DNA from: Sphingopyxis sp. OPL5
Lineage (GTDB): Bacteria; Pseudomonadota; Alphaproteobacteria; Sphingomonadales; Sphingomonadaceae
Reading direction: 5' to 3'
Length of the DNA: 64,000 nt
NCBI RefSeq assembly: GCF_003797775.2
Contig: NZ_CP060725.1
Span: 1,550,001-1,614,000 of the forward strand
Below are positions 10,010 to 40,942 of this stretch, piece after piece. The translations under genes and the position numbers were made by a program. Positions within the stretch are counted from its first letter, which is position 1. The number at the start of each line of letters is the position of its first letter. The notes beneath the pieces were generated by a model. That model had not been told where the DNA came from and did not search any database. It saw only the letters and a program-made list of their open reading frames with translations.

Positions 10010-10791
10010 AGGCGCGCGGCCATCGCATAGCTCGACATGTCGGGCAGCATATGGCCGCCATCGACGACCAGCGCCTGCCCGGTCACGAATTGCGAGGTCG
10101 GCGAACAGAAGAACATCACCGCATTGGCGATATCGCTGGGCAGGCCGGCGCGTTGCAGCGGGATGTTCGGCACAATCTTGTCGCGCGTGACATCGTCCAT
10201 CTTGGGGCTGCGATCGTCGATGACGAGGCCCGGTTCGATGACGTTCACCGTCGCGCCATGCTTCGCGAATTCGAGCGCGAGGTTGCGCGCGAGGCCGTTC
10301 ATGCCGCCCTTCGATGCGGCATAGCTGTCGAGCCCGGCGAGCCAGGCGTGGTTTCCGATCAGCGAGGAAATGCCGACGATGCGGCCGTTGCCGCATGTCT
10401 TCACATACGGCAGCGCGGCGCGGCTCAGCCACATGAAGCTGTAAAGATTGGTCTTGAGGACGCTGTCGAACTCCTCGTCGGTGACCTGCTCGAACGGGGT
10501 GAACGGAAAGATCGCGCTGTTGTGGACGACGATGTCGAGCCCGCCAAAGGCATCGACCGCCGCCTGCACCGCGGCATCGCAAGCCGCGCGCGTCGAAAGG
10601 TCGAGCGCGACCAGTTCGACCTCGCCGCCCATCGCGCGCAGCTCGTCGGTGACCTCCTGCCCGCTGGCTTCGGTGCGGGTGGCGATCATCACGCGCGCGC
10701 CGTTCTGGACGAGCTGCGTCGCGATGACGCGCCCGATGCCGCGCCCGCCGCCGGTGACCAGTGCGACTTTTCCGGCAAGATCGATCTTCAT
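10006..10791 (-). CDS. SDR family oxidoreductase
   Basis: 261-residue classical SDR. It has TGGGRGIG, the HNSA variant of the NNAG motif, Ser in IVGISSLIG and YAASK. The start is taken at ATG 10791, preceded by AAGGGA; a GTG at 10806 overlapping the upstream gene is possible but has no ribosome-binding site. It overlaps the next SDR by GTGA. It likely oxidises a hydroxyacyl intermediate made by the dehydrogenase pair at the head of the operon (inference from position). Confidence 0.88.
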   Translation of the reverse strand: MKIDLAGKVALVTGGGRGIGRVIATQLVQNGARVMIATRTEASGQEVTDELRAMGGEVELVALDLSTRAACDAAVQAAVDAFGGLDIVVHNSAIFPFTPFEQVTDEEFDSVLKTNLYSFMWLSRAALPYVKTCGNGRIVGISSLIGNHAWLAGLDSYAASKGGMNGLARNLALEFAKHGATVNVIEPGLVIDDRSPKMDDVTRDKIVPNIPLQRAGLPSDIANAVMFFCSPTSQFVTGQALVVDGGHMLPDMSSYAMAARL

Positions 10792-13491: not shown

Positions 13492-14637
13492 TCAGGCTCC
13501 CCGCGGCAGGCCGAGGTAGCGGCCCGAAATCATGTTGAGCTGAACCTCCGCCGCCCCCGCCGCGATGCCGGCGGTGATCGCCGAGTTGAACTGCGCGCGC
13601 AGATGACCGTCGGCGCCATCGACGAGCAGGTCGGGCAGATAGGTCGAGGTGAGGTTGGCGACCGCATGGTCGGCCTGGATCATCGCGTAGCGCGCAAGAT
13701 AGGTTTCCGCGCCGGGGTCGCTGTCCTTCGCGCGGCCGTCGATGACCAGATAGGTCTGCAGGCGCGCCGCCTCGACCGCGGCGAGCGCGATCGCGCAATC
13801 GGCGCGCACCACCGCATCGTCGAAATCGCCGCGCGCTTTCAGCACATCCACGATATGCGCGAGGCCGCGCGCCGCCTTTTCATAGCGCCCGGCGCCGATC
13901 CGTTCATAATGGATGATCGCCTGGACGATCTTCCAGCCATGGCCTTCGTCGCCGAGCAGCGCATCCGCCGGCACGCGCGCGTCGGTGAAGAAGATTTCGT
14001 GAAAATCGTGGCGCGAATGGACGCCGGGGATCGGACGGATTTCGATGCCCGGGGTGTCCATCGGCACGATGAAGCAGCTCACCCCGCCCTTGCCCTTGCC
14101 GCCGACGCGCGCGAGCAGGAACATGATGTCGGCGCGCGCCGCGTAGGAGGTCCAGATCTTCGACCCGTTGATGACATAATCGCCGCCATCGGGCTCGGCG
14201 CGCGTCTGCATATTGCCGAGGTCGGTCCCCGCTTCGGGCTCGGAAAAGCCCTGGCACCACAGAAGTTCGCCCGCCGCGATCGCCTGCAGATAGCGTTGCT
14301 TCTGGGTCTCGGTGCCGAATTTCATGATCGCCGGACCGGCCCAGTTGGTCCCGAGGTAGAGCGACGAGCGCGGTTCGCCGATCGACCACATTTCCTCGCT
14401 GATGATGATTTGTTGCCACGCACTGGCATCGGAGCCGCCATAGTCTTTTGGCCAGTGCCGGACGATCAGGTCGCGTTCGGCGAGCCGTGCATTGAAGGCA
14501 CGGGCATGCTCCATCAGTTTGGGGCTGGACGGCCCGTGCGGCGCATAATTCTCCCACCAGTCATCGGGCAGGGTCGCCAGTACCTCATGGAGTTCGGTCC
14601 GATACGCCGCCTCCGAATCGCTCCAGGCAAATTCCAC
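13492..14637 (-). CDS. Acyl-CoA dehydrogenase, large subunit type (pair 1)
   Basis: 381-residue acyl-CoA dehydrogenase that introduces an alpha,beta double bond using FAD. Seen: WCQGFSEPEAGTDL (FAD/substrate loop), GSKIWTSYA, the beta-domain and a C-terminal ISGRYLGLPRGA. It is the first gene of the minus-strand operon running to 9269, behind a good promoter at 14664-14691 that overlaps the shared TAACTGGTATAC motif. It is likely to form a heteromer with the adjacent 318-residue protein. Substrate unknown. Confidence 0.9.
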   Translation of the reverse strand: MEFAWSDSEAAYRTELHEVLATLPDDWWENYAPHGPSSPKLMEHARAFNARLAERDLIVRHWPKDYGGSDASAWQQIIISEEMWSIGEPRSSLYLGTNWAGPAIMKFGTETQKQRYLQAIAAGELLWCQGFSEPEAGTDLGNMQTRAEPDGGDYVINGSKIWTSYAARADIMFLLARVGGKGKGGVSCFIVPMDTPGIEIRPIPGVHSRHDFHEIFFTDARVPADALLGDEGHGWKIVQAIIHYERIGAGRYEKAARGLAHIVDVLKARGDFDDAVVRADCAIALAAVEAARLQTYLVIDGRAKDSDPGAETYLARYAMIQADHAVANLTSTYLPDLLVDGADGHLRAQFNSAITAGIAAGAAEVQLNMISGRYLGLPRGA

Positions 14638-14652
14638 ATCGCTCTCCTCGCT

Positions 14653-14691
14653 TAACTGGTATACTTATTCTGCGCATCGTTCGCTTGTCAA
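14653..14691 (-). promoter_or_regulatory. Promoter and candidate GntR operator of the 14637-9269 operon
   Basis: Minus strand: TTGACA (14686-14691), 16-nt spacer, AATAAG (14664-14669) as the -10. The -10 directly abuts and shares a base with the motif TAACTGGTATAC (14653-14664 on the plus strand), which recurs inverted and exact at 16659-16670 before the next plus-strand operon. The TGGTATAC core fits the TNGTnnnACNA pattern of FadR-type GntR regulators. The double-GntR regulator gene begins 20 bp away on the other strand, making repression by it the simplest reading. Confidence 0.55.
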
Positions 14692-14710
14692 ACGAGAGGA
14701 AAATCACGAA

Positions 14711-15904
14711 GTGTCGGAAGGCGAGAGGGGACGTAGCGTCCCGGGGGGCAGATCGAAGATGGTGGGCGCGAGCAAGCGCAGACGAAAATTGGGGGAGATT
14801 GTCGCCGAACGCATCATCGGCGAGATCATCCGGCGCGGCTGGAAAGAGGGTGAGGTGCTGGGCACCGAAGCCGATTTCATGGAGATGTTCCGCGTCTCAC
14901 GCGCGACCTTCCGCGAAGCGGTGCGCCAACTCGAATGGCATGGCGCGGCGGGGATGCGGCGCGGCGTCTATGGCGGCCTCGTCGTCAAGGCGCCGCCGCG
15001 CCACGCGATCGTCTTTGCCGCCAAAACCTATTTCGAGCTGACGAAGGTCGAACGCCCACTGCTCGACGACACGGCCGCGATCCTGCGCGCCGCGCCGCGA
15101 CTGCACGCCGACGCGGACAACCTGGCGATCGAACTTTTCCTCGAGGCGGTCGACCGGCGGACGATCACCGATCTCGCCAACGAGCGCATGGTCGCCGGCT
15201 CGGTGCCCAAGCTCAGCGAGACGATCGCGCTGCGGCTGGTCCAGGATATCGAAAATGCCGGGGCGAAGCGCGGCACCAACCTGGGCAACGAAGGCGAACT
15301 CCAGCGGCGCTATGGCACGAGCCGCGCTGTGATGCGCGAGGCGCTCCGGCCGCTCGAACTTCACGATATCGTGCGGGTCAAGACCGGCGCGCAAGGCGGC
15401 GTCATCATCCGCGAATGCGACCCGGCTTATACGATCGAACTGACCTCGATCTTCCTCACCTACTCGCGCATCCCGCTGTCGCATCTGTGGGAGGCGCAAA
15501 GCTGTCTCGAGATCGCGGCGGTCGAGAAATTCGTCCGCCGCGCCGACGCCGAATCGCTTGGCGCGCTGCGCAAGGCGCTGGTGCGGCTCGACCAGGCGTC
15601 GGCGGGTCACTATCTCGCCTCGGCGTGCGAGTTTCACCAGATCATCGCCGATCACAGCGGCAACCGCGCGCTCGCGCTGTTTGTCGGCGTGGCGCTCCGA
15701 TACGGCCTGACGGTGATGCCGATGCCCGACGAGAATTTCCTGCCCGAACTCAAGATGCAGCACGGCCACATGGTCGATGCCATCGCGGCCGGCGATCGCG
15801 ATGGCGCGATGGCGTCGATGCGGGCGATGTTCGATCATGCCCGTCGCTGGATCGCGCGAATCGAACGCAAGCAGGAACGCCGGGCCGCCGAATTGTCAGA
15901 CTGA
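14711..15904 (+). CDS. Transcriptional regulator with two GntR wHTH domains and a FCD domain
   Basis: 397-residue regulator with an unusual layout. A first GntR winged helix spans about residues 26-95 (recognition segment EADFMEMFRVSRATFREAVR), an 70-residue linker follows, a second winged helix spans about 165-235 (NEGELQRRYGTSRAVMREALR, then the GAQGGVII wing), and a FadR C-terminal (FCD) ligand domain covers about 258-385 with EFHQIIADHSGN and a late His (MQHGHMVDA). Ordinary FadR proteins have one wHTH and about 240 residues. The start is GTG 14711 (GAGG upstream) or ATG 14759. It is transcribed divergently from the dehydrogenase operon and likely controls both flanking operons through TGGTATAC sites. 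Confidence 0.88.
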   Translation: MSEGERGRSVPGGRSKMVGASKRRRKLGEIVAERIIGEIIRRGWKEGEVLGTEADFMEMFRVSRATFREAVRQLEWHGAAGMRRGVYGGLVVKAPPRHAIVFAAKTYFELTKVERPLLDDTAAILRAAPRLHADADNLAIELFLEAVDRRTITDLANERMVAGSVPKLSETIALRLVQDIENAGAKRGTNLGNEGELQRRYGTSRAVMREALRPLELHDIVRVKTGAQGGVIIRECDPAYTIELTSIFLTYSRIPLSHLWEAQSCLEIAAVEKFVRRADAESLGALRKALVRLDQASAGHYLASACEFHQIIADHSGNRALALFVGVALRYGLTVMPMPDENFLPELKMQHGHMVDAIAAGDRDGAMASMRAMFDHARRWIARIERKQERRAAELSD

Positions 15905-16588
15905 GCCAAGGCAAATGCCGTCGACCGCGAAGGGCGCAGCGGCGACCCCGGACCGGTCGAGCGTCGGCGACAGGACCATGCGTTCGGTCCCGGCCCGCGC
16001 CGCGAGTTCGGCGAGCGCGGCATCGGCCTCGCCCGCCGCGACTTCACAGATCGCCAGATAACGATAGGGATAGGGGCGCAGCGCCGGATGATCGACCAGC
16101 CGAAAACGCTGGGCCGCAACGAAGCCCGGCACCGCGAGGACGTCGGGGAGATGGGTGTGATTGTACCAGTGGTTGAAGACGTCGTCGTCGCCGGGCGTGG
16201 CGTTGGTGAGGACGATATAGAGCAATCGGTCCTTGCCCCCGGCGTCGGGCGTGACGGTAGACCGCCGGCGTTCGGTCAGCGCCTCGGCGATCGCCATCAT
16301 CATCGATTCGCCGTCGAGCGTGTCGCTCATCGTCCAGTCGCCGCTGCCGGCGCGGGTGAATATTTCCGTCAGGATCGCCGCCGGGTCGCCGTCCAGCCAA
16401 TAGGTCGCGGCGTTCGACCATCGCGGGCTTTCCTCACCCTCGGCAACGCACGAAAATTCGCCGCGCAGCACCCCGGGGACGCGGCAGACATCGGGAAGAT
16501 GATGCGCCAGATACCAGTCGCGGTGCGCCGTTTCCCGGCCTGATTTCGGGTTCTGCAGCACGAGCATCATCCCCTTGGCTTCGGTCAT
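15896..16588 (-). CDS. Tandem dimeric alpha/beta-barrel (EthD-like) protein
   Basis: 230-residue protein built of two similar ferredoxin-like halves: residues about 1-110 contain WYLAHHLPDVCRVPGV and residues about 115-220 contain WYNHTHLPDVLAVPGF, an evident internal duplication. This is the EthD/dimeric alpha-beta barrel fold found beside many catabolic operons, often with no proven reaction; some relatives are ring-opening or isomerase enzymes. Its 3' end overlaps the convergent regulator gene by 9 bp. Single-gene unit whose promoter region shares the 94-bp gap holding the TGGTATACCA palindrome. Confidence 0.75.
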   Translation of the reverse strand: MTEAKGMMLVLQNPKSGRETAHRDWYLAHHLPDVCRVPGVLRGEFSCVAEGEESPRWSNAATYWLDGDPAAILTEIFTRAGSGDWTMSDTLDGESMMMAIAEALTERRRSTVTPDAGGKDRLLYIVLTNATPGDDDVFNHWYNHTHLPDVLAVPGFVAAQRFRLVDHPALRPYPYRYLAICEVAAGEADAALAELAARAGTERMVLSPTLDRSGVAAAPFAVDGICLGSV

Positions 16589-16656
16589 ATTCGCTCTCCG
16601 TCACGCGCCATATCGAAATGGGGCTTGCCGCGAACCGCCGTTCGATGCAAGGAATA

Positions 16657-16670
16657 TGGTATACCAGTTA
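16657..16670. promoter_or_regulatory. TGGTATACCA palindrome, candidate GntR/FadR-type operator
   Basis: A perfect 10-bp palindrome TGGTATACCA (16657-16666) extended to an exact inverted copy of the 12-mer TAACTGGTATAC seen at 14653-14664. It lies 16 bp before the GTG start of the crotonase gene and directly ahead of its GGAGG ribosome-binding site, in the gap between that gene and the divergent EthD-like gene. Binding here would block the rightward operon 16683-24011. Confidence 0.6.
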
Positions 16671-16682
16671 GGAGGATTGAGG

Positions 16683-17483
16683 GTGCCAGCGCGATACGCG
16701 AATTATTCGGCCATCAAGGTCGGGCAGGACGGCCATGTCCTGACGATCACACTCGACAACCCGCCGCTCAACGGCATGACGCCCGAGGCGCATGAGGAGT
16801 TGACGCGCATCTGGACCGACGCCGGGGCCGACCCCGGCGTGCGTGTCATCATCTTCACCGGTGCGGGCGAACGCGGCTTTTGCGCCGGCGGCGATCCCAA
16901 AAGGATGATCGACAATTGGGGCAATCGCGAGCGCTGGCATGTCGGAATTTTCGAAGCGCGCGCGATCATCGTCGGCATGCTCGAATGCCCGAAGCCGGTC
17001 ATCGCCCGGATCAACGGTCATGCGATGGGCATGGGCGCCAGCCTCGCGCTCGCGGCCGACATCACCATCGCGGTCGAAGACGCGCTGATCGGCGACCCGC
17101 ACGTCAGCGTCGGTCTCGCGGCGGGCGACGGCGGTTCGCTGCTGTGGCCCAATCTGGTCGGACTGGTCGAGGCGCGCCGCCATTTGCTGAGCGGTGATCC
17201 GCTGCGCGGCAAGGACGCCGCCGCCAAGGGGCTGATCACCGAATCGGTGGCCCGCGACGATCTCGATGCCGCGGTCGCCAAATGGGTCGCCACCTTCCTC
17301 TCCAAATCGCCGAGCGCGCTGCAGACGACCAAGCAGGCACTGAACCTCGACATCCTCGACAAGGCGCGGCGCCACATGGGGGAGATGCTGCGGCTCGAAA
17401 CCCGGTCATGGGAATCGCCCAATCACCGCGAGGCGGTGCAGGCGATGATCGACAAACGCCCGCCCGATTTCATCGACGAGTGA
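16683..17483 (+). CDS. Enoyl-CoA hydratase/isomerase family protein
   Basis: 266-residue crotonase-fold protein; the fold hydrates or isomerises enoyl-CoAs. The first oxyanion-hole strand reads GFCAGGDPKRM and the second is GHAMGMGASLALAADI. The position of the first catalytic Glu (PEV in classical hydratase) is PHV here, with an acidic residue instead in AAGDGGS, so hydratase activity is not certain. GTG 16683 is chosen because a perfect GGAGG lies 7 nt before it; an in-frame ATG at 16656 falls inside the operator palindrome. First gene of the plus-strand operon to 24011. Confidence 0.85.
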   Translation: MPARYANYSAIKVGQDGHVLTITLDNPPLNGMTPEAHEELTRIWTDAGADPGVRVIIFTGAGERGFCAGGDPKRMIDNWGNRERWHVGIFEARAIIVGMLECPKPVIARINGHAMGMGASLALAADITIAVEDALIGDPHVSVGLAAGDGGSLLWPNLVGLVEARRHLLSGDPLRGKDAAAKGLITESVARDDLDAAVAKWVATFLSKSPSALQTTKQALNLDILDKARRHMGEMLRLETRSWESPNHREAVQAMIDKRPPDFIDE

Positions 17484-24597: not shown

Positions 24598-24625
24598 TTG
24601 TCACCTGATTATATCAGTATACTAT
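24598..24625 (+). promoter_or_regulatory. Candidate promoter with overlapping palindromes for the second OYE gene
   Basis: Plus strand TTGTCA (24598-24603), 16-nt spacer, TACTAT (24620-24625). Inside lie an inverted repeat CTGAT-TAT-ATCAG (24605-24617) and the 8-bp palindrome AGTATACT (24616-24623), whose GTATAC core matches the TGGTATAC sites at 14657 and 16657. The gap is shared with the divergent SnoaL-like gene. Confidence 0.45.
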
Positions 24626-24661
24626 TTAAAAGACGTCAGACGAACAAGGGGAGAGTGAGCT

Positions 24662-25972
24662 ATGCTGCAAACCGCTACGATCGCTGTAACCGATGATACC
24701 GGCCCGACGGAGCCTGAGCGCGGGCAAACCACCGGCGCGACAGCCGGAAACGGCGCGCAGCCGCTGGACGTTTCGCCGCTTTTCACGCCGCTGACGATCG
24801 GCCGGCTGACGCTGCAAAACCGCTTCGTCATGGCGCCGATGGGGCGCGGTTCGGCAAGCGACGGGGTGTTGTCGCCGGGCTATGCGCCCTATTATGCCCG
24901 CCGCGCCGAAGGCGGAGCAGGATTGGTCATCGGCGAAGCGACCGCGATCGACCATCCGACCGCTATGCATATGCGGACCAGTTCGACGATATATGGTGCG
25001 GGCGCCGAAGCCTGGGCGAAGGTCGCGGATGCCGTGCATGCCAAGGGCGGCGCGTTCATGCCGCAGATCTGGCACGCCGCGCTGATGCGCTCGCCGTATC
25101 CGGCCGACGACCCGAAACTGGAAATGGCCAACCGCGATAGGAAATCGATGGGGCCGTCGGGGCTTTACATGCCGGGACTGATCGATCCGTCGCTGACCCC
25201 GCCCGAACCGGTGCAGGTCGAGGAGCCGATGACGGTCGCCGAGATCGACGATTGCATTAAATCCTATGCCCGGGCCGCGGCGACCGCGATGGCGATCGGG
25301 TGTGACGGGATCAACATCCACGGCGCGCACGGCTATCTGATCGACGAATTCCTCTGGTCGCGCTTCAACCGCCGCACCGACGCCTATGGCGGCAGCCTGG
25401 TCAACCGCGTCCGCTTCGCCGCCGAGGTGGTCGCCGCTTGCCGCGCCGCAACCGCGCCCGGCTTTCCGATCATGCTGCGCCTGTCGCAGTGGAAACAGCA
25501 GGACTATCGCGCGCGGATCGCCGAGTCCGCCGACGAGCTGGCCGAAATCGTCGAACCGCTGGCGGCTGCCGGCGCCGACCTGTTCGACTGTTCGACGCGG
25601 CGGTTCTGGGAAGCCGAATTCGCCGGATCGGACCTCAGCCTGTCGGGCTGGATCAAAAGGCTGACGCGAAAGCCGACGATGATGGTCGGCTCGCTGGGGA
25701 TCGCCAAGGAGGTGCTGGAAAAGGACGCGATGGCCGCGCTGCGCGCCGTCGCGGCAGGCGGCAAGGCAGCGGCTCCGACCGACGTCGCGACGATCGACGG
25801 CCCGCCGCATATGCTCGAAGAGGCGCTGCGGCGCTTTGCGCGGGGCGATTTCGATCTATTGGGGGTCGGGCGGATGATGATCGCCAATCCCGATTTCGCG
25901 AACCGCGTCCGCGACGGCGACTACGCCGCGCTGCAGGTTTACCGGACCGAGCATCTGATGAAGCTCGAATGA
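24662..25972 (+). CDS. NADH:flavin oxidoreductase, old yellow enzyme family
   Basis: 436-residue OYE-type flavoprotein, paralog of the protein at 21233 but with about 35 extra N-terminal residues and a short insert near residues 355-375. VMAPMGRGS, IWHAA, IHGAHGYLIDEFLWSRFNRR and YGG are present, as is the shared LSQWKQQD segment. It stands alone in its unit, with its 3' end 1 bp from the convergent crotonase gene. The ATG at 24662 follows GGGGAGAG. Likely an ene-reductase acting on a ring or side-chain enone. Confidence 0.87.
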   Translation: MLQTATIAVTDDTGPTEPERGQTTGATAGNGAQPLDVSPLFTPLTIGRLTLQNRFVMAPMGRGSASDGVLSPGYAPYYARRAEGGAGLVIGEATAIDHPTAMHMRTSSTIYGAGAEAWAKVADAVHAKGGAFMPQIWHAALMRSPYPADDPKLEMANRDRKSMGPSGLYMPGLIDPSLTPPEPVQVEEPMTVAEIDDCIKSYARAAATAMAIGCDGINIHGAHGYLIDEFLWSRFNRRTDAYGGSLVNRVRFAAEVVAACRAATAPGFPIMLRLSQWKQQDYRARIAESADELAEIVEPLAAAGADLFDCSTRRFWEAEFAGSDLSLSGWIKRLTRKPTMMVGSLGIAKEVLEKDAMAALRAVAAGGKAAAPTDVATIDGPPHMLEEALRRFARGDFDLLGVGRMMIANPDFANRVRDGDYAALQVYRTEHLMKLE

Positions 25973-40027: not shown

Positions 40028-40057
40028 GCTTCTGTCGAGAGTGATATGCGAGGAATT

Positions 40058-40942
40058 TCAGTCGATCAGATCGACCACCGAATTGGGGCCGACCTGCGCC
40101 AGCCACACTTTGCCCGCCGCGACCATATGCGCCTTCCAATGTTCTTCGGCGCCGGCGCCATCCCTGGCTTCGATCAGATCGACAAGCTTGGTATGCGATT
40201 TCAGGCCGAACCGGAGCTGTTTCAGCGAAATTTCCGGGTCGACCGAATTGCGCCGCTGCGCCAGGTTCAGATGTTCATTCACCAGACCGCTGAGCGCGTG
40301 CGAGAACATGATCAGCGTCTTGTTGCCGGCGAGGTCGATCATCGCCCGGTGAAATTCGGCGATCATCGACGTGATCGCGAACCGGTCCTTGATATGGCTC
40401 ATTTCGCCTTCGATCATCGCGCGCAGGATCGGCACCGCTTTTTCGCTGTTGCGCTCGGCCACCAGCCGCGCCGCGGGCGGTTCGATCAGGGTGCGCATCT
40501 CGTAAAGGTCGCCGATGGTGACGCCCGTCGCCTGCAAGGTGATCCCGGCGGCGCGTTCGATCATCACATAATTGGGCGAACTGACGCGCGCGCCGCCCCG
40601 CGCGCCGCGCGCGACGGTCACCAGCCCCTCCGATTCGAGAATACGCACCGCCTCGCGGATCGTCGGGCGCGACACTTCGAATTCGGCAATCAGATGCGAT
40701 TCGGCGGGAAGCGTATCGCCATCGACGAGTTCGCCGCGAATGATGGCGTTGCGGATTTGTTTCGCGACCAGTTCGGCGGTCTTGGGAACGCGAACGGCCG
40801 CCGCATTGCTTCGATTGCCGACGGGTATTGCGACAAAAGCGTTAGACAAGTTTAATTCCTTTATGGGGTTGGGCGCCTTTTGCCCCGAAACCGCGCGCCG
40901 CGCAAGCTTAGCCGGATCGACTCGCCTCTTGCAAACAGTCAT
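40058..40942 (-). CDS. GntR-family (FadR subfamily) transcriptional regulator
   Basis: Regulator of up to 294 residues. The winged helix spans about residues 52-122 (AESHLIAEFEVSRPTIREAVRIL and the GARGGARV wing), and the FCD ligand domain follows with DLYEMRTLIEPPAARL, EFHRAMIDLAGN and a late His (HWKAHMVAA) for metal or acid ligand. The start is uncertain: ATG 40942 has a weak ribosome-binding site, whereas TTG 40849 has AAGGAA at good spacing and would give a 263-residue protein of normal size. It lies between the E1 operon (same strand) and the divergent Rieske operon and may control both. Confidence 0.9.
   Translation of the reverse strand: MTVCKRRVDPAKLARRAVSGQKAPNPIKELNLSNAFVAIPVGNRSNAAAVRVPKTAELVAKQIRNAIIRGELVDGDTLPAESHLIAEFEVSRPTIREAVRILESEGLVTVARGARGGARVSSPNYVMIERAAGITLQATGVTIGDLYEMRTLIEPPAARLVAERNSEKAVPILRAMIEGEMSHIKDRFAITSMIAEFHRAMIDLAGNKTLIMFSHALSGLVNEHLNLAQRRNSVDPEISLKQLRFGLKSHTKLVDLIEARDGAGAEEHWKAHMVAAGKVWLAQVGPNSVVDLID

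Follow-up and report, generated by a model that had tools for sequence, protein, structure and literature searches.

The window, as we call the whole 64,000-nucleotide stretch of Sphingopyxis sp. OPL5 analysed here (contig NZ_CP060725.1, positions 1,550,001 to 1,614,000), carries the gene of a two-headed GntR regulator between two operons. The features considered below are the following, in window coordinates:

13492..14637 (-): acyl-CoA dehydrogenase (ACAD), first gene of the left operon (Pfam)
14653..14670 (-): candidate operator site 1, GTATAC core at 14659-14664, between the ACAD gene (-) and the regulator gene (+)
14686..14691 (-): TTGACA hexamer that may be the -35 of the ACAD operon (kept in 9 of 10 loci)
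14711..15904 (+): regulator gene, GntR - FCD remnant - GntR - FCD (ORF of 397 aa, GTG start)
14798..14965 (+): head 1 (H1), GntR winged helix, residues 30-85 (PF00392, 32.2 bits, over the curated cut-off)
14999..15205 (+): remnant of the first FCD, residues 97-165 (aligned to FCD1 of tandem relatives)
15212..15388 (+): head 2 (H2), GntR winged helix, residues 168-226 (PF00392, 35.2 bits, over the curated cut-off)
15485..15835 (+): FCD domain, residues 259-375 (PF07729, 57.4 bits, cut-off 24.3)
15896..16588 (-): EthD-like protein (TIGR02118, 28.2 bits, below the cut-off of 30.5; no Pfam match)
16653..16670 (+): candidate operator site 2 (GTATAC core, 16659-16664), immediately ahead of the enoyl-CoA hydratase gene's AGGAGG
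16683..17483 (+): enoyl-CoA hydratase/isomerase, first gene of the right operon (Pfam)
24611..24628 (+): candidate operator site 3 (GTATAC core, 24617-24622), ahead of the OYE-family gene
24662..25972 (+): old-yellow-enzyme (OYE) family oxidoreductase, downstream of site 3 (PF00724, 189 bits)

The EthD-like gene is divergent from the right operon across site 2 and convergent with the regulator gene, whose 3' end it overlaps. Acyl-CoA dehydrogenases, an enoyl-CoA hydratase, OYE-family enzymes, a dehydrogenase, a transporter and a P450 are found among the neighbours, which makes a CoA-linked degradation intermediate the likely ligand of the regulator. Further along, at about 40050-40940 on the minus strand, the window encodes a single-headed GntR-FCD regulator.

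The first-pass annotation of this DNA had read the 397-aa protein as two complete GntR heads and a single FCD, and profile searches bear this out. Pfam GntR matches it in two stretches (57.1 bits in all, against a cut-off of 27), and both heads exceed the GntR cut-off separately in a genome-wide PF00392 search. No second two-headed paralogue appears among the 18 PF00392 matches listed for the genome, two close matches being found only here. None of the NCBIfam equivalogs for NanR, FadR, LldR and PdhR is over its cut-off, the best being NanR with 96.3 bits against 260. Like other members of the FCD-type family, the regulator has a GntR winged helix and a C-terminal all-helical FCD; in place of one head and one ligand domain per chain, it has two heads, one FCD and a remnant. 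It is a derived variant of the FCD-type GntR family without the standard FadR-type layout. An AlphaFold2 model (pLDDT 84.1, pTM 0.80) was obtained for P0001, the protein also used in the alignment and heads tree below, which differs from the window protein at residue 9. It displays two winged helices separated by four short helices (97-161) and followed by a helical C-terminal domain (238-396), and its H2 and FCD superpose on single-headed GntR/FCD structures, including in Foldseek comparison.

A homologue search returned 42 proteins: 37 of 376-406 aa, which we call the short form and which make up alignment A1, 3 longer ones (445-509 aa) and 2 of single-headed length. A search started from one long relative returned 333 proteins, and 106 of the 120 listed were new entries of 452-594 aa. 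All eight long relatives that were scanned, from Streptomyces and Amycolatopsis among others, contain two GntR and two FCD stretches in the order GntR-FCD-GntR-FCD, and the model of one such tandem protein, P0043, is confident overall (pLDDT 87.9, pTM 0.87). When aligned to 25 tandem proteins, the linker of the short form matches FCD1 in the first helix (TYFELT vs TFFELT) and in the GN..L.LF helix and lacks two stretches; the FCD1 region is 68 residues long in the short form vs 182 in P0043. A tree of 126 heads places the first heads of both forms, from all 37 short and 25 tandem proteins, on one side of a 100/99 branch, the underlying alignment having 73 columns only and the tandem second heads forming no single clade. 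Mean identities run in the same direction, the first heads of the short form being closer to tandem first heads (61.4%) than to tandem second heads (44.8%), and the second heads closer to tandem second heads (51.0%) than to first ones (41.0%). The simplest history, well supported by these sequence comparisons, is that a GntR-FCD gene was duplicated and fused, and that FCD1 subsequently collapsed. The first-pass proposal of a fused tandem duplication with a reduced first ligand domain thus gains intact GntR-FCD-GntR-FCD relatives, a remnant aligned to FCD1 and the 100/99 H1 branch in its support.

The loss appears to have gone further in some relatives. A same-genus genome that also has the short form encodes, in locus L078 (11496-12428, plus strand), a protein of 310 aa that has two GntR domains and lacks an FCD. 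Seven proteins of this kind, 302-356 aa long, came to light; two GntR stretches are present in all seven, and no FCD match was obtained in any of them at E up to 0.1. They have the FCD1 deletion in common with the form of the window and have also lost most of FCD2. The existence of these FCD-less, two-headed proteins suggests that one chain with two heads seems to suffice.

The full regulator is present in 5 of 80 same-genus genomes. At wider scales, where only the best few candidates were scored per genome and the counts are lower bounds, the short form was found in at least 2 of 397 genomes drawn from the family, source genome included (E up to 1e-50), the tandem profile in at least 1 of 385 genomes of the class, namely the source genome (E up to 1e-60), and the FCD-less profile in at least 1 of 396 genomes of the order, the match being the source genome's own gene. 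Among 174 matching plasmid records, one covers at least 80% of the query, and all are below 60% identity.

The first-pass annotation had also placed a 12-mer, TAACTGGTATAC, at 14653-14664 (+) and 16659-16670 (-), and both positions are confirmed. With up to 2 mismatches it has 3 matches in the window vs 0.15 expected from shuffles. The 4,676,975-base genome holds exactly 2 exact matches, both flanking the regulator gene, so that the 12-mer is not common in the genome. Allowing one mismatch adds a single genomic match, whereas the reversed control pattern gives 15. The added match, at 2923419, was rejected as an operator, as it lies inside long overlapping ORFs (L035) and is probably due to chance. 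The window contains three GTATAC hexamers, and all three are candidate operators. The third, site 3, is absent from the first-pass annotation; it is an exact match to TAANTNGTATACNNAT, of which there are only 2 genome-wide. None of 60 dinucleotide shuffles equalled the three GTATAC with a good half-site of the window; the GTATAC shuffles covered the loci other than L023, L024 and L028. The operator form NyGTNxACNy is recognised here, at the level of sequence, in a GTATAC core with TGG/CCA flanks at conserved places. At all three sites the better half faces the catabolic gene and lies between the promoter region and the ribosome-binding site. Outside the window, a one-mismatch match to the extended operator pattern occurs on both strands at C1:1795093-1795110 of the same genome (G000).

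Two descriptions of these sites hold in part. The perfect palindrome TGGTATACCA reported at site 2 does exist, at 16657-16666, but its perfection is not conserved, being seen only in the window and in L027 among the six loci with a site 2. The 'good promoter' claimed at site 1 was not recovered by a consensus scan of 14400-16900, which returned no promoter-like site; nevertheless, the minus-strand TTGACA is found upstream of site 1 in 9 of 10 of the relatives' regions, window included.

Across the genus, TAAYTGGTATAC has exactly two matches in each of the five regulator-bearing genomes, flanking the gene and spanning 2,018-2,033 bp end to end. In the 75 same-genus genomes without the regulator it has one match, in one genome (G069), and its reversed control has 26 matches in 20 of the 80 genomes. 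Fisher's test for the co-occurrence of site and regulator gives p = 2.5e-7, a value that is too strong since related genomes are treated as independent. The lone match in G069, TAATTGGTATAC at C1:3445948-3445959, could be a chance occurrence or a relic.

Ten distinct short-form loci (the window, L022-L029 and L074) were compared. A GTATAC upstream of the regulator, corresponding to site 1, is present in all ten, weakly so in L024. Its presence in L023 and L024, where tblastn detects no acyl-CoA dehydrogenase on the left, is in keeping with autoregulation. Six loci have site 2 (the window, L022, L026, L027, L029 and L074), and the five besides the window are those in which the EthD-like gene and the dehydrogenases of the right operon come next in the locus. 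Both L025 and L028 lack the right operon and site 2, and have one recognisable operator each; the L023 sequence ends inside the regulator, with no site 2 there; L024, with its weak site 1 and no site 2, has one right-operon gene nonetheless. Site 3 was seen in the three loci where this OYE gene was found (the window, L026 and L027). The third GTATAC of L029 and the second of L024 fall inside genes. At site 2 all 6 loci share the gene-side CAGTTAG, whereas their promoter-side hexamers vary; site 1 retains AATAA in 9/10 loci and CARTTA in 6/10. From their genomic rarity, their co-occurrence with the regulator in the genus and their conserved positions, the 12-mers are very likely operators of this regulator, as had been suggested, and action of the regulator through these putative sites is strongly indicated.

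GTATAC also occurs near more distant relatives. The locus of a Novosphingobium tandem regulator (L030) has one copy in 5 kb, 21 bp upstream of a divergent gene (shuffles, 0.14), and that of a Caulobacter tandem regulator (L031) has seven in 21 kb (shuffles, 0.52), of which two lie upstream of genes, at 28 and 42 bp from their starts. At L078, the one FCD-less locus covered, a single weak GTATAC (half scores 4 and 3) precedes the next ORF by 39 bp. No GTATAC is present in L032 and L033, the Pseudonocardia loci of distant tandem-like relatives, and the operator is therefore not universal. In L034, which encodes a single-headed GntR-FCD relative (10025-10774), the only GTATAC (7771) lies inside a near-perfect palindrome, AAACTAGTATACTAGTTA. 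In this single case it is perhaps the symmetric operator of a like-headed dimer.

Mean pairwise identity among the 37 short-form proteins is 81.1% for H1, 66.1% for H2, 53.7% for the FCD and 46.6% for the remnant; the corresponding pN/pS values (15 pairs, 6 loci) are 0.158, 0.290, 0.339 and 0.394. Within the short form, H1 and H2 are on average 38.5% identical. R64, R68 and E53 of H1 and R205 and R209 of H2 are invariant in 37/37 proteins, and E194 is kept in at least 90%. In our alignment both R64 and R205 fall on Arg45 of Atu1419, a residue that, in the excerpt of PMC7797058, contacts the G of GTATAC in ATGTATACAT. With their invariant residues and this match to Arg45, both heads look able to bind DNA.

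The positions of the sites point to repression and, for site 1, also to autoregulation. We infer from these observations an explanation that, taken as a whole, has in our judgement evenly balanced chances of being right. The regulator would act locally, as a repressor of the acyl-CoA-type degradation cluster around it; it would also control its own gene and be released by a ligand. Fusion to GntR-FCD-GntR-FCD and loss of most of the first FCD would have left each chain a pre-fused dimer with unlike heads. R64 of H1 and R205 of H2 would each sit on one G of a GTATAC-centred pseudo-palindrome, the operator being placed between promoter and ribosome-binding site. The remaining FCD would sense a metabolite of the pathway, probably either the substrate acid or an acyl-CoA, upon which the DNA would be released.

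GntR regulators are, in the textbook picture, homodimers that read palindromes. Here the evidence leans to a single GTATAC-centred site read jointly by the unlike heads: the same motif recurs at all sites though the heads are so little alike, site 2 is conserved asymmetrically, and the FCD-less form retains both heads. The asymmetry of site 2 is suggestive of one chain reading one asymmetric operator with both heads. Counting against such pairing, the promoter-side half of site 1 is conserved too (AATAA, 9/10), perhaps because of a -10 element or because the site is read symmetrically. Besides, NanR, whose heads are identical, is also asymmetric on DNA (excerpt of PMC8012715), so that site asymmetry is no proof of H1/H2 pairing.

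An FCD dimer could alternatively place a pair of H1 on one operator and a pair of H2 on another, holding or looping for example sites 1 and 2, 2 kb apart. We regard this as unlikely, even though the four-headed tetramer of Atu1419 loops two GTATAC palindromes 190 bp apart (excerpt of PMC7797058) and site 2 of the window is a perfect 10-bp palindrome. The 2.0-kb spacing of the site pair is kept in 5/5 genomes, but it equals the length of the intervening genes and does not require selection. Heads of 38.5% identity would be expected to prefer different operators, yet a single motif is common to the three sites; in L025 and L028 the regulator comes with only one recognisable operator, and the FCD-less form is without the dimer domain. 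Bridging of sites, as the first-pass annotation had imagined, is possible only via dimerisation of the remaining FCD. More doubtful still is a reading by head 1 alone (H1:H1 across the dimer), with head 2 as a structural or regulatory leftover. H1 is indeed much the most conserved domain (81.1% vs 66.1%) and has the lowest pN/pS (0.158 vs 0.290), but H2 is the second most constrained one, its contact residues R205 and R209 never vary in the 37 proteins, and the FCD-less form retains both heads in 7/7 cases. It is very improbable that the sites belong to another regulator or serve as promoter elements alone. One such regulator would be the single-headed GntR-FCD near 40.4 kb, of which a 76-77% identical relative adjoins the two-headed gene in L025 and L028, and a promoter role could be suggested by the overlap of site 1 with a candidate -10 region. 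Against both, the other 8 short-form loci, L023 and L024 among them, have GTATAC at site 1, and the sequence available for them contains no neighbour of this kind that exceeds the match level of the short regulator itself; GTATAC accompanies the tandem regulators of L030 and L031 beside unrelated genes, and the 12-mer pairs co-occur with the two-headed gene in 5/5 genomes. The adjacency in L025 and L028 also suggests that the single-headed and two-headed regulators may work in one cluster.

The family could represent a lineage of GntR repressors, pre-dimerised within a single chain, whose ligand domains were freed to decay by the fusion and whose DNA reading became independent of the sensor and dimer domain, a broader reading that we hold only tentatively and think slightly more apt to be wrong than right. 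It would run from GntR-FCD-GntR-FCD (about 450-590 aa) through GntR-remnant-GntR-FCD (376-406) to GntR-remnant-GntR-remnant (302-356), the heads reading unlike halves of a GTATAC-centred operator that stays recognisable through the loss; the FCD-less end form would perhaps be without any ligand. Such a natural series, from a fused double through one to no ligand domain, amounts to a step-by-step experiment on how a repressor may turn into a single-chain dimer and on how it may lose its sensor. The candidate operators are short, rare and located, so that one- versus two-chain reading, the division of labour between heads and ligand dependence are directly testable. An uncharacterised degradation cluster gains a regulator and three candidate operators.

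GntR/FCD regulators, the GTATAC core and ligand-domain reduction (YtrA) are already known. Among the matches listed in the open-licence PMC literature, no naturally tandem or two-headed GntR protein and no graded FCD loss surfaced, and the same literature yielded nothing on the cluster or on a pseudodimer; PMC10450161, in its excerpt, concerns GntR mutants and binding sites. NanR, CGL2915, the Streptococcus agalactiae GntR and FadR have one head per chain and form symmetric homodimers, whereas the present regulator has an extra head and a collapsed FCD before it. In the YtrA subfamily the C-terminal domain is cut to about two helices and DNA binding persists (excerpt of PMC4494728). This reduced domain is comparable to that of the FCD-less two-headed form, but YtrA has one head per chain. 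Atu1419, the VanR of Agrobacterium fabrum, has sites that overlap -10 elements and is encoded in a catabolic cluster (excerpt of PMC7797058). The GTATAC core is common to its ATGTATACAT and to the candidate sites described here; Atu1419 differs in its single-headed chains, assembled in a tetramer, and in its 10-bp symmetric palindromes.

A parallel for two heads in one chain is Mce3R of Mycobacterium tuberculosis, a double-TetR repressor in which a single chain uses both of its unlike HTHs to read an asymmetric site (excerpt of PMC11667970). According to the same excerpt, it has one working ligand domain, is autoregulated, and holds two DNAs as a dimer. The likeness, two unlike heads and one ligand domain left in one chain, is one of analogy and not of homology. 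The TetR fold is non-homologous to GntR/FCD, and the Mce3R site is called non-palindromic, in contrast to the palindromic GTATAC core found here. If our explanation is true, the two-headed regulator would be the GntR counterpart of Mce3R.
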